Shown one piece after another: positions 24,999-28,528 of a stretch of DNA of 64,000 bases. The DNA is from Paeniglutamicibacter gangotriensis Lz1y (GTDB taxonomy: Bacteria > Actinomycetota > Actinomycetes > Actinomycetales > Micrococcaceae), in the NCBI RefSeq assembly GCF_000348945.1, contig NZ_AOCK01000004.1, forward strand, positions 124,001 to 188,000. The letters run 5' to 3'. Under the pieces are notes generated by a model. It had not been told where the DNA came from and did no database searches. It saw only the letters and a program-made list of their open reading frames with translations. The position numbers and the translations under genes are program-made. Each line of letters opens with the position of its first letter. Within the stretch, counting starts at the first letter, position 1.

Positions 24999-26345
<1,347 letters not shown>

Positions 26346-26376
26346 TCCTGCCTGTCCACCCCTAGAGCCGCGTGTG

Positions 26377-26434
26377 AAGGGCCGAGGGTGGCCATCGGAA
26401 CTACGACGTTCCGATGGCCACCCTCGGCCCTTTT
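26377..26434 (+). terminator. strong terminator after gdhA
   Basis: A perfect 25-bp stem (26377-26401 with 26408-26432) with a 6-nt loop, ending in TTTT at 26431-26434. It insulates gdhA from the aromatic leader that begins about 85 bp further on. Confidence 0.9.
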
Positions 26435-26479
26435 CTGTTGGCATAAGTCGCCATGTGTCGTCGAGTCCGATCCGTGTGT

Positions 26480-26509
26480 TTGTGCTTTCGGAAGCGGTGG
26501 GCGTACATT
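26480..26509 (+). promoter_or_regulatory. promoter of the aromatic leader and DAHP synthase
   Basis: TTGTGC (26480-26485) as -35, an 18-bp spacer, and TACATT (26504-26509) as -10. The leader ATG is 7 nt after the -10 box, so the leader peptide is probably translated from a leaderless 5' end. Confidence 0.6.
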
Positions 26510-26516
26510 TTCACCT

Positions 26517-26576
26517 ATGACTAATCGTTGGTATGCGTATTTTGTGTCGGCTCTGGAGGGGCCTAAGACGCGATAA
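26517..26576 (+). CDS. aromatic amino-acid leader peptide upstream of the DAHP synthase gene
   Basis: A 19-residue ORF, MTNRWYAYFVSALEGPKTR, with Trp-Tyr-Ala-Tyr-Phe at residues 5-9. Four aromatic residues in five codons immediately before an aromatic-pathway gene is the hallmark of a ribosome-mediated attenuation leader. It is too short for ordinary ORF calling. It starts 7 nt after a TACATT box. The Trp-Tyr-Ala codons (26529-26537) form the 5' arm of one RNA stem, and the next codons form the 5' arm of a competing stem, so ribosome stalling would change the fold. A comparable leader before aroF is known in Corynebacterium glutamicum; this sequence is its apparent functional analogue. Confidence 0.8.
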   Translation: MTNRWYAYFVSALEGPKTR

Positions 26577-26743
26577 TTTCGCATACCCACCTTCAGAGCC
26601 GACAAGGGCCGCAAGCTATTGCTTGCTGGCCCTTCGCTATTTTCAAAATAGCGGCCCTGAAGGAATACGGAGACGTGTCAGCAGGGCCGCACCCAAACCG
26701 AGCGGCCCCGGCACACACGTGCAGGGCTGAGATTGAAAGGCCC
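26530..26743 (+). promoter_or_regulatory. attenuator-like leader RNA with mutually exclusive stems
   Basis: Stem 1: GGTATGCG (26530-26537) with CGCATACC (26580-26587). Stem 2: 26545-26559 with 26590-26604, 15 bp with one G-T pair; it interlocks with stem 1, so they compete or form a pseudoknot. Stem B: 26604-26616 with 26621-26634, 13 bp with one bulge. Stem C: 26635-26641 with 26647-26653. Alternative pairs: CCTTCA (26590-26595) with TGAAGG (26658-26663), GGGCC (26606-26610) with GGCCC (26653-26657), and GGGCCT (26559-26564) with AGGCCC overlapping the Shine-Dalgarno region (26738-26743). There is no T-run terminator, so control may act on translation or through Rho. Confidence 0.7.
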
Positions 26744-26747
26744 GACC

Positions 26748-27848
26748 ATGAGCATCGTCACCGCCACAGAGCAGCGCATCAACACCAATGAACGCGTGCT
26801 GGGCATCACCGAACTTCCCACTCCGGCCGAGCTGTTGGCCGAGCTTCCCGTCGGGGATGCTCAGGGGTACCGGATCATGCGGGCCCGTCAGGAAGTCCGG
26901 GCCGTACTCTCGGGGCTCGATGAGCGCCTACTGGTCATCATTGGCCCCTGTTCGATCCACGACCCGGCAGCGGGGCTTGAATACGCCGTCAGTCTTGCCG
27001 CAGCGGCCAAGGAACACGAAGGCGAGCTGCTGGTGGTGATGCGCAGCTACTTCGAAAAGCCGCGCACCACCGTTGGCTGGAAAGGCTTGGTCAACGACCC
27101 TCATCTGGATGGCAGCCACGATATGGCTTCAGGCCTACGCACGGCACGCGAATTCATGCTCGCCGCCAGCGACTTGGGCCTCCCGCTGGCCACCGAATTC
27201 CTTGAACCGATCAGCGCCCAATACCTCTCCGACGTCATCAGCTGGGGTGCCATCGGCGCACGCACCACCGAAAGCCAGACGCACCGCCAGCTGGTCTCCG
27301 GCCTCTCGATGCCGGTCGGATTCAAAAACGGCACCGACGGGTCCGTGCAGGTGGCGATCGACGCGTGCCAAGCCGCCAGCGCCCCGCAGTCGTTCATGGG
27401 GATCAGCGAGGAAGGACGCACCTCGATCGTAGAAACCGCCGGGAACCAGGATGCCCACTTGATCCTGCGCGGCGGCGCCGACGGCCCGAATTTCGCTGAG
27501 GAACCTGTGGCACAGGCGTCGGCCGCCATGGAAAGTGCTGGTATGAACCCGCGGGTGATAGTCGATGCGTCGCACGCGAACTCGGGCAAATCCCACGTGC
27601 GCCAGGGCGAAGTCATCGAGGCGCTGGCCGAGCGTATTGCCGCAGGCGATCACACCATCGCCGGCATCATGGCCGAGAGCTTCCTGGTTGCAGGTGCCCA
27701 GAAGCACGACCCGGATCTCGTGGCAGCAGGATCCGATGTACTTTCGCACTTGACCTACGGGCAGTCCGTCACCGATGCCTGCATGGGCTGGGACAAAAGC
27801 GCCGAGCTGCTGGAAATCTTGGCCGGCGCGGTGCGTGCCGCACGCTGA
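26748..27848 (+). CDS. aroG: 3-deoxy-7-phosphoheptulonate (DAHP) synthase, class I
   Basis: 366 aa from the ATG at 26748, with GAAAGG 7 nt upstream. It condenses phosphoenolpyruvate and erythrose 4-phosphate, the entry step of aromatic amino-acid synthesis. AroAI-type motifs are intact: VIIGPCSIHDPAAGLEYA, MRSYFEKPRTTVGWKGLVNDP, GAIGARTTESQTHRQL, PVGFKNGTDGS, and VIVDASHANSGKSH. Length fits the E. coli AroF/G/H type, which are feedback-controlled by Tyr, Phe or Trp. The leader in front suggests control by aromatic aminoacyl-tRNA supply as well. Confidence 0.95.
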   Translation: MSIVTATEQRINTNERVLGITELPTPAELLAELPVGDAQGYRIMRARQEVRAVLSGLDERLLVIIGPCSIHDPAAGLEYAVSLAAAAKEHEGELLVVMRSYFEKPRTTVGWKGLVNDPHLDGSHDMASGLRTAREFMLAASDLGLPLATEFLEPISAQYLSDVISWGAIGARTTESQTHRQLVSGLSMPVGFKNGTDGSVQVAIDACQAASAPQSFMGISEEGRTSIVETAGNQDAHLILRGGADGPNFAEEPVAQASAAMESAGMNPRVIVDASHANSGKSHVRQGEVIEALAERIAAGDHTIAGIMAESFLVAGAQKHDPDLVAAGSDVLSHLTYGQSVTDACMGWDKSAELLEILAGAVRAAR

Positions 27849-27894
27849 CCAGCTTCCGGCGATGAAGCACCCACCCCTTGGTATAACCTTCACA

Positions 27895-27934
27895 TGGTTC
27901 ACATTGGCCCCGTAAGCCCCTAAACTGTGAACCA
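27895..27934. promoter_or_regulatory. inverted repeat upstream of the BldC-like gene
   Basis: TGGTTCACA (27895-27903) and TGTGAACCA (27926-27934) are perfect 9-bp arms separated by 22 bp. A further TTCACA starts at 27889, making a direct repeat with the left arm. No T-run follows. It may be an operator for the downstream regulator or a weak hairpin after aroG. Confidence 0.35.
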
Positions 27935-28035
27935 ACCGCATAGGGTATCTTGGGGTGTTGGTGTGGGCAAGGAACAATCGTTGTTTGGCGCCGATGTGTG
28001 GCTTCTATGTGAAAATTTGTCAGGAGAATCTGGGA

Positions 28036-28248
28036 ATGGTCGAATCGCAAAACTTTGCCAGCGCGCGTTTCATGACGGTGGCGGAAGTTGCTGAGGTAAT
28101 GCGCGTGTCGAAGATGACCGTTTACCGCCTCGTTCATTCAGGCGATTTACCCGCAGTGCAGTTCGGTCGTTCTTACCGCGTGCCAGAAACCGCGGTGCAG
28201 GAATACCTGCGTGCAGCCGGGTACGGACGGGACTCCAGTACCGGCTAA
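28036..28248 (+). CDS. BldC-like/excisionase-type helix-turn-helix DNA-binding protein
   Basis: 70 aa from the ATG at 28036, with AGGAG 9 nt upstream; the longer open frame (from 27955) is unsupported. The whole protein is one MerR-like winged helix: FMTVAEVAEVMRVSKMTVYRLVHSGDLPAVQFGRSYRVPETAVQEYL. It resembles the small conserved HTH proteins found upstream of bS22 in many actinobacteria. It probably binds DNA as a filament or dimer. Targets are unknown. Confidence 0.85.
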   Translation: MVESQNFASARFMTVAEVAEVMRVSKMTVYRLVHSGDLPAVQFGRSYRVPETAVQEYLRAAGYGRDSSTG

Positions 28249-28394
28249 CGCCCCCGTATTTTTTCGGAGTGGTCAAAATCTGCTCCGGAAGCAGGTAATC
28301 TGTTAAGGAACGTTTAACGTCCAGTTGGCTATTCTGGTGCTATGGTGCCGAAGAAATAGTAGTCGGCAATCGAATCAGTTTGTGAGGAACCAGT

Positions 28395-28493
28395 ATGGGC
28401 TCTGTTGTAAAGAAGCGCCGCAAGCGTATGTCTAAGAAGAAGCACCGTAAGCAGCTTCGTAAGACCCGTCACCAGCGTCGTAATAAGAAGTAG
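28395..28493 (+). CDS. 30S ribosomal protein bS22 (AURKAIP1/COX24-domain)
   Basis: 32 aa beginning MGSVVKKRRKRMSKKKHRKQ and ending in RRNKK; more than half the residues are Lys or Arg. It matches the tiny actinobacterial small-subunit protein bS22, seen bound near 16S rRNA in mycobacterial ribosomes. The MSKKKHRK core is the AURKAIP1/COX24 motif. A possible -10 box (TATGGT) lies at 28341-28346. The gene is closed by a bidirectional terminator and is easily missed because of its size. Confidence 0.95.
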   Translation: MGSVVKKRRKRMSKKKHRKQLRKTRHQRRNKK

Positions 28494-28528
28494 ATGCCGG
28501 CTCCGGGCATGCCCGGAACCTAGCATGT

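Follow-up and report, generated by a model that had tools for sequence, protein, structure and literature searches.

DAHP synthase (3-deoxy-7-phosphoheptulonate synthase) carries out the first step of the shikimate pathway. Leaderless attenuators were reportedly described in the abstract of Neshat et al. (2014), the study credited with the AroR leader of Corynebacterium glutamicum, and Canestrari et al. (2020) are said to have treated the cysteine-rich leaderless short open reading frames (ORFs) of mycobacteria, for which we know of no RNA relay of the type proposed below. The closest described system is that of Corynebacterium glutamicum, in which aroF is preceded by AroR, a leader peptide with an F-Y-F motif, as stated in passages of two reports (PMC4046766 and PMC11802643); one of them, a review, adds in the passage concerned that aroF responds to limitation of Phe and not of Tyr (PMC11802643). 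A 2005 survey of Actinobacteria recorded, in the sections concerned, no conserved RNA structure before phenylalanine and tyrosine genes (PMC1262725). Here we describe a leader ORF encoding MTNRWYAYFVSALEGPKTR, a peptide rich in Trp, Tyr, and Phe, which lies between an upstream NADP glutamate dehydrogenase gene and a downstream type I DAHP synthase gene in a 64,000-nucleotide (nt) stretch, hereafter the window, of Paeniglutamicibacter gangotriensis Lz1y (Micrococcaceae; contig NZ_AOCK01000004.1, positions 124,001 to 188,000).

We consider it fairly probable that this leader controls the DAHP synthase gene by ribosome-mediated attenuation, in which a stalled ribosome decides the outcome and translation is the level of output, and that it is a rewired relative of C. 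glutamicum aroR. Among the matches listed in the open-licence literature, no account of such a leader in Micrococcaceae was found. The new elements are its breadth of occurrence, the chain of RNA segments a-c-d-d'-e, the codon bias, and the predicted dependence of the structure on ribosome position. The coordinates of all features are collected in Table 1.

The original prediction, made from the sequence of the window alone, had proposed a leader peptide attenuator with competing stems, whose leaderless ORF begins 7 nt after a TACATT box. The ORF and the spacing of the box were confirmed by the sequence, and conservation and swap tests supported the attenuator with competing stems. A leaderless small ORF with at least four aromatics in five residues occurred once in the window, versus 0.02 times per 64 kb of random sequence (first-order Markov, 150 trials). 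Lack of conservation of the aromatic run or the stems in related genomes, which the prediction had named as evidence against itself, was not the case: 149 Micrococcaceae genomes were searched, 59 matched this DAHP synthase, and all 59 had a leader of this kind. The end of a TANNNT motif lay 6, 7, and 8 nt before the leader start in 30, 25, and 4 of these 59 genomes, respectively, in a scan allowing 5 to 9 nt, and this conserved −10 spacing suggests a leaderless start. The leader frame of the window is open upstream to a GTG at 26388, across the glutamate dehydrogenase terminator; the start at 26517 appears more likely than this GTG. A consensus scan of 26300-26800 called no sigma-70 promoter at 26480-26509.

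The DAHP synthase match was found in 75 of 297 genomes of the order and in 80 of 394 of the class. Leader relatives occurred in other families of the order and also in Dietzia and Mycobacterium; named carriers included Arthrobacter, Sinomonas, Pseudarthrobacter, Dietzia, Mycobacterium, Mycolicibacterium, and the metagenome-assembled genome (MAG) Candidatus Avipropionibacterium avicola. Micrococcaceae leaders had the core motif RWYAYF..ALEGP, and those of Dietzia and Mycobacterium had AYWRF..APGGA; within the latter family, members with small genomes had RFYF. In that family (the family of genome G567), 211 of 251 genomes had the DAHP synthase match, and 38 of the 49 loci examined had a leader; 7 of the 11 misses were loci cut by contig ends, to which the fixed offset was not applicable. 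The leader is not universal in the class, because only 12 of the 25 class loci L187 to L211 had one by rule and 13 had none. The rule demanded three aromatics and missed variants with two (L175, L180, L182, and L087, by eye), so the counts are low; the figure of 99 of 150 upstream regions is not a rate, since these regions include non-actinobacteria. To judge from these sequences, the leader is real and is conserved far beyond what one sequence could reveal. Other aromatic small ORFs were seen before DAHP synthase genes: AYFWF-like leaders (QRAYFWF and variants) at L285 to L289 and L291, and, among L093, L121, L094, L125, and L119, RFYYR with T-rich terminators in Rubrobacter and an Actinobacteria MAG, FWFGYWR in Sorangium and Polyangiaceae MAGs, and LYYGYWYFF in a Dehalococcoidia MAG.

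The leader and its downstream region contained, in order, segment A (with the control codons), a, b, the stop codon, A', c, hairpin T, hairpin P3, d, d', and the ribosome-site segment e. Segment c can pair with either a or d, d with either c or d', and d' with either d or e; neighbouring pairs overlap and are therefore mutually exclusive. Complementarity was assessed by a swap test, in which the best ungapped helix between a sequence's own segments was compared with that obtained when one segment was combined with those of other sequences; segment tests were used because whole-leader MAFFT alignment looked unreliable beyond d. The 43 representatives were chosen from 96 sequences by a k-mer overlap of <0.45; L076, L093, and L121 were dropped before segment counts, and L040 and L073 were kept despite a poorly parsed d. 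Own segments beat swapped ones for a:c (P = 6.0e-9), c:d (P = 1.0e-4), d:d' (P = 1.7e-5, n = 42), and d' with the 20-nt stretch that precedes the DAHP synthase start codon (P = 5.8e-7), with n = 43 unless stated. Coding-window controls for the four pairs were negative in the same test (P = 0.57, 0.77, 0.91, and 0.97), as were the nonpredicted pairs c:d' (0.41), d:e (0.17), and a:e (0.84) against swaps. The a:c result is partly favoured by selection, because c was chosen by its pairing with a; the d':e result is not, because d' was chosen via d and the window for e was fixed. Among the 26 Micrococcaceae alone, a:c (5.3e-5), d:d' (3.7e-4), and d' with the ribosome-site window (1.8e-4) again exceeded swaps. 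The d':e score reached 14 in 77 of the 96 sequences, representing 48 distinct sequence pairs.

Alignment A2, comprising 20 of 23 listed sequences (L036, L039, and L047 were left out), had paired cells at 95.3% for a:c, 98.0% for T, 88.9% for c:d, and 98.8% for P3; the outermost c:d pair, tallied apart, had 29.4%. Its covariation score was reached by 0 of 500 shuffles in either state. At one position shared by a, c, and d, the bases changed together (T,A,T in 67, C,G,C in 22, and other combinations in 7 of the 96 sequences), giving a three-way base match in 89 of 96; the corresponding numbers among the 43 representatives were 28, 11, and 4. When the c-to-d alignment was folded with RNAalifold, no more than 6 pairs of T emerged. 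The first aromatic codon lay a median of 17 nt (12 to 21) before a, and the median a-to-c distance was 28 nt (23 to 45) in the 43 sequences. By eye, we considered whether b pairs to the 3' strand of T but dropped the idea, since the ALEEP and mycobacterial types do not keep this pairing.

Of the two stems originally predicted, stem 1 (A:A') has 8 perfect pairs and stem 2 (a:c) has 15 pairs, one of them G-U, and the two do interlock. The call for covariation was answered in part: stem 2 covaries, whereas stem 1 is conserved but does not, although it lies far above shuffled sequence (3.0e-8); absence of covariation is expected if A is held fixed by coding. Competition between stems also held, but the decisive contest is between a:c and c:d, a stem that had not been named. 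The arm of stem 1 covers only parts of Trp5, Tyr6, and Ala7, with Tyr8 and Phe9 outside. The suggestion that alternative pairs reach the DAHP synthase ribosome site agrees with the swap result for d'.

Codon choice in the leaders was strongly biased. Up to segment a, the Tyr and Phe codons of the 43 nonredundant leaders were TAT 70, TAC 2, TTT 37, and TTC 5, and those in the examined part of the DAHP synthase gene of the same sequences were TAT 3, TAC 190, TTT 2, and TTC 272. In the 40 ORFs of at least 300 residues in the window, TAT and TTT accounted for 19.5% and 19.2% of their synonymous pairs, respectively. Selection for stalling would produce such a bias; another possible reason is that selection keeps the A region unpaired.

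The effect of ribosome position was predicted by stall folding, in which only the RNA ahead of the ribosome was allowed to fold and the RNA ended just after d. When Trp5 or Tyr6 of the window occupied the A site, the pairing probability was 0.91 for a:c and 0.00 for c:d at three footprint edges; a stall at Tyr8 was borderline (c:d of 0.04, 0.60, or 0.83 depending on the assumed footprint), and Phe9 and all later codons gave c:d values of 0.80 to 0.83. Across the 43 sequences, c:d was 0.12 at the first aromatic codon, 0.75 at the last, 0.83 at the stop codon, and 0.60 without a ribosome; it was lower at the first aromatic stall than at the stop codon by >0.2 in 37 of 43 sequences and higher in none. 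Trp and Tyr codons crowded 14 to 19 nt before a, where stalling gave c:d values of 0.11 to 0.12, and Phe codons were commonest 5 to 7 nt before a, where the value was 0.70. Thus, in silico, two exclusive RNA states are set by the position of the ribosome on the control codons. The mixed Trp, Tyr, and Phe sensing originally proposed was predicted in part, at Trp5 and Tyr6 (and also Ala7), with Tyr8 borderline, but not at Phe9; equal three-way sensing is unsupported for this reason.

The attenuator that we favour would operate as follows. The message probably begins at the leader ATG, as we infer from the box spacing. With enough Trp- and Tyr-tRNA, the ribosome would run to the stop codon and lie between a and c, so that c pairs with d; the left-over d' would then pair with the DAHP synthase ribosome site, and little enzyme would be made. 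Without a ribosome, A:A' and a:b would also leave c to d for a while, giving a default-off state. This state would have to be kinetic, because ribosome-free c:d in 15 genomes of the genus falls from 0.74 just after d to 0.13 once the RNA reaches the start codon. A ribosome waiting for Trp or Tyr at codons 5 and 6 would have its front edge just short of a, allowing a to pair with c; d would then pair with d' once d' is made, and the ribosome site would be left free. In this genus, d'' and f may lengthen the chain with its sign unchanged. Hairpin T would form in both states and may pause or partly terminate RNA polymerase.

Several results agree with the later steps of this chain. In RNA ending just after d', d:d' was 0.83 without c and 0.27 with c across the 43 sequences, and removal of c raised it by >0.2 in 32 and lowered it in 1. 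With the two extra segments of the long form, window RNA to 26747 gave off-state values of 0.90 (c:d), 0.86 (d':d''), and 0.79 (f:e), versus on-state values of 0.98 (d:d'), 0.79 (d'':f), and 0.00 (f:e). Translation attenuators are marked by a downstream ribosome site whose pairing is conserved; such pairing was found between d' and the 20 nt before the start codon, with negative coding controls. Translation is the probable level of control, one of the two originally suggested.

The following observations weigh against this mechanism. In the window, d:d' was 0.97 just after d' even with c present (0.91 without c), and when 28 nt of coding sequence were included, d':e was 0.73 off and 0.66 on. 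The predicted unpaired fraction of the Shine-Dalgarno (SD) sequence, with RNA to the start codon, was 0.40 off and 0.42 on in the 43 sequences, 0.52 and 0.48 across the 15 genus genomes, and 0.61 and 0.19 in the window, the last being in the wrong direction. The site opening energy was barely higher off than on (9.82 versus 9.08, P = 0.02; up in 25 and down in 10 of 43; mean difference, 0.7 kcal/mol). Because predicted SD accessibility shows no opening, support for the last step comes from covariation and parity, with starvation leading to an open site. A simple ribosome mask combined with full-length RNA folding gave no clear switch; that procedure allowed pairing across the ribosome. In the swap tests, c:d was weak within the 26 Micrococcaceae (P = 0.068), perhaps because c hardly varies there; stem 1 was not above swaps (P = 0.12 for the 43 and 0.61 for Micrococcaceae); and the nonpredicted pair d:e was marginally above shuffled sequence (P = 0.046). 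Finally, T looks like the actinobacterial terminators that lack a T-run, resembling those after tRNA and transfer-messenger RNA (tmRNA) genes.

Termination at T is kept as the main rival because T is terminator-like. Under this explanation, which we regard as rather unlikely, polymerase would stop at about 26637 unless a stalled ribosome lets a:c form against the base of T and weaken it, and the downstream pairs would be secondary. Consistent with it, c or a:c directly abuts T in the 43 sequences (median gap 0 nt, −2 to 4), and T is followed by a U-rich tail in the family members L039 and L047, the Mycobacterium locus L085, and the C. glutamicum relative L292, in which no d segment was seen by eye. 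A covariance model, R1, spanning c to d and built from 30 of the 43 sequences, had matches in 31 of 345 class genomes, one of them the window's own; those with E values up to 1e-3 all lay just upstream of type I DAHP synthase (22/22, three being model sequences), as did 24 of 31 overall, and of the other seven, four were directly after tRNA or tmRNA genes, with hairpins of the GGCC-CTTCGYC type. In addition, passages of two reports give C. glutamicum aroF attenuation as transcriptional (PMC11802643 and PMC11525245); another, in the part concerned, calls it translational (PMC7356990). However, T was predicted to form whatever the ribosome position (0.93 and 0.95), no conserved T-excluding pairing was found by eye, and a terminator exclusive with an antiterminator, as in classical trp-type attenuation, was not found in the leader, where T forms in both states. 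The T of the window has no clear T-run, and a pattern scan of 26300-26800 called no terminator in the leader. The missing T-run originally noted is confirmed, but T resembles actinobacterial terminators that lack such a run, so that termination keeps a real, if lesser, probability. Termination at T would also leave the conserved c:d, d:d', and d':SD complementarity unexplained. As separate observations, terminator-like hairpins ending in CCTTCGYCGT without a T-run stood directly after tRNA or tmRNA genes at L235, L236, L237, and L242, and at the AYFWF-type loci L287 and L289, c was seen by eye to overlap one arm of a terminator whose tail is T-rich, an arrangement that would amount to mutual exclusion of the classical kind.

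The stems might instead be a fixed brake, with the leader coupling translation or allowing reinitiation close to the start of DAHP synthase, without amino acid sensing. The ribosome site is indeed partly paired in both states, and reinitiation at leader peptides has been proposed, according to a passage of one report (PMC4833913); the leader stop codon lies 171 nt before the ATG in the window, and the strong TAT/TTT bias and the spacing of Trp and Tyr codons to a fit stalling. We regard this reading as improbable. A protein- or small-molecule-responsive RNA switch in which the leader ORF is incidental is more improbable still: c:d enclosing T and P3 would make a compact three-way junction in predicted folds and pair counts, but the conserved bases are explained by pairing and coding, and no Rfam 15 family reached its gathering score in the stretches searched (window positions 25500-28500 and 11 loci). 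Chance occurrence of the ORF and stems is refuted by the 59/59 conservation and the covariation and has a negligible probability.

The attenuator was compared with described systems. As in C. glutamicum, a small aromatic leader precedes a type I DAHP synthase, and segments a, c, and T follow in the order seen at L292; the control motif is F-Y-F there and W-Y-A-Y-F here. Locus L292 belongs to a close C. glutamicum relative, the published primer having 3 mismatches in 27 bases to its aroF start. It has a leader encoding MFAARFYFMTGSGASPRKLAINCAS, a TAAGGT box 8 nt before the ATG, and a, c, and T abutting c; unlike in the window, a T-run follows T, and no d, d', or chain to the ribosome site was seen by eye. 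Predicted a:c at L292 was 0.98 with a stall at the first Phe, 0.76 at Tyr, and 0.42 at the second Phe, values that agree only loosely with a response to Phe and not Tyr. With the ribosome at the stop codon of the L292 leader (region around 1320-1500), the predicted fold had c paired to the U-tract so that T became longer, a possible route by which a:c could weaken termination. Because L292 carries RFYF, a, c, and T, the two elements are regarded as relatives, so the functional analogue originally noted in Corynebacterium does exist but appears to be more than an analogue; because T in the window has no clear T-run, the window element is filed as a relative with changed output and not as the same attenuator. 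Attenuators of the trp type (Escherichia coli, and Corynebacterium and Streptomyces trp, as outlined in PMC1262725) likewise have leader control codons and three complementary segments, of which the middle one takes part in either of two exclusive stems; here, however, the shared-segment stem c:d has no T-run, encloses two hairpins, and is followed by a chain to the ribosome site. The LEU element before leuA of Actinobacteria, likened here from its description in the same survey and not by sequence, also combines a leader peptide, crossing helices, and pairing to the SD sequence, but its codon run itself pairs with the SD sequence, and the gene is different (PMC1262725). The mycobacterial short ORFs, in which an upstream ORF was proposed, in the part of the report concerned, as an amino acid-responsive attenuator, have cysteine codons instead (PMC4633059).

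More tentatively, one ancestral actinobacterial module, an aromatic leaderless peptide with the a-c-d triple, may have been wired to differing outputs. In leaders of the Corynebacterium and AYFWF types it would act on terminators, whereas in Micrococcales and Mycobacterium it would feed a domino chain with at least four exclusive helices, which would carry the stalled-ribosome state about 140 to 230 nt to the ribosome site. Amino acid specificity would be given by the codon about 11 to 22 nt before a, so that the version described here would sense Trp and Tyr and ignore Phe. If true, coupling of DAHP synthase to Trp and Tyr charging would explain its control across many soil and industrial actinobacteria and would offer a natural series in which the same leader has a transcriptional or translational output, for study of the range of an RNA relay and of codon position versus amino acid sensed. 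Deregulated versions could help the production of aromatic compounds.

Table 1. Features of the leader region and DAHP synthase gene, in window coordinates, with the basis of each assignment
Feature	Positions	Strand	Basis
Promoter-like TTGTGC, 18 nt, TACATT	26480-26509	+	Sequence; −10 box TACATT at 26504-26509, 7-nt gap to leader ATG
Leader ORF, probably leaderless	26517-26576	+	Conserved in 59/59 family genomes with the enzyme
Trp5 and Tyr6 codons, predicted sensing codons	26529-26534	+	Stall scan by folding
A, 5' arm of stem 1; pairs with A', encloses a:b, crosses a:c	26530-26537	+	A:A' 0.99 in ribosome-free RNA to 26665
Segment a, 5' arm of stem 2, inside leader ORF	26545-26559	+	Swap test, own versus swapped a:c
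Small local hairpin a:b (26549-26553/26559-26563)	26549-26563	+	a:b 0.99 in ribosome-free RNA to 26665
A', 3' arm of stem 1	26580-26587	+	Sequence; folding
Segment c, 3' arm of stem 2; first 11 nt also pair with d	26590-26604	+	Pairing counts
Hairpin T, terminator-like, no clear T-run in window	26604-26634	+	98% of cells paired; both sides changed in 6/10 pairs
Hairpin P3 (26635-26642/26646-26653)	26635-26653	+	4-pair version of relatives, 98.8% of cells paired
Segment d; pairs with c (10/11 positions) or d'	26651-26663	+	Swap test, c:d (n = 43)
Segment d'; pairs with d, e, or d''	26682-26690	+	Swap tests, d:d' (n = 42) and d' with SD window
Segment d'', extra in long form of this genus	26702-26709	+	Window length scan by folding only
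Segment f, extra in long form; pairs with d'' or e	26723-26728	+	Window length scan by folding only
SD sequence AAAGG (26736-26740) and segment e GGCCC (26739-26743)	26736-26743	+	Sequence; swap test
Type I DAHP synthase, ATG at 26748	26748-27848	+	TIGR00034, 455.9 bits (cut-off, 173.2)

Upstream of the leader, the same pattern scan called a terminator at 26381-26428, 3' of the glutamate dehydrogenase gene. The Rfam matches, all sub-threshold, were microRNA families on this strong terminator (26377-26440; mir-617), which are surely spurious, and the CPEB3 ribozyme on the minus strand of the leader (19.6 bits versus 35). Downstream of the DAHP synthase gene, positions 27955-28248 contained a gene for a small excisionase-family DNA-binding protein, the sequence of which was also seen by eye beside the DAHP synthase gene at several loci of the genus. 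The genome itself has one type II DAHP synthase elsewhere (L212, C7:197061-198353).

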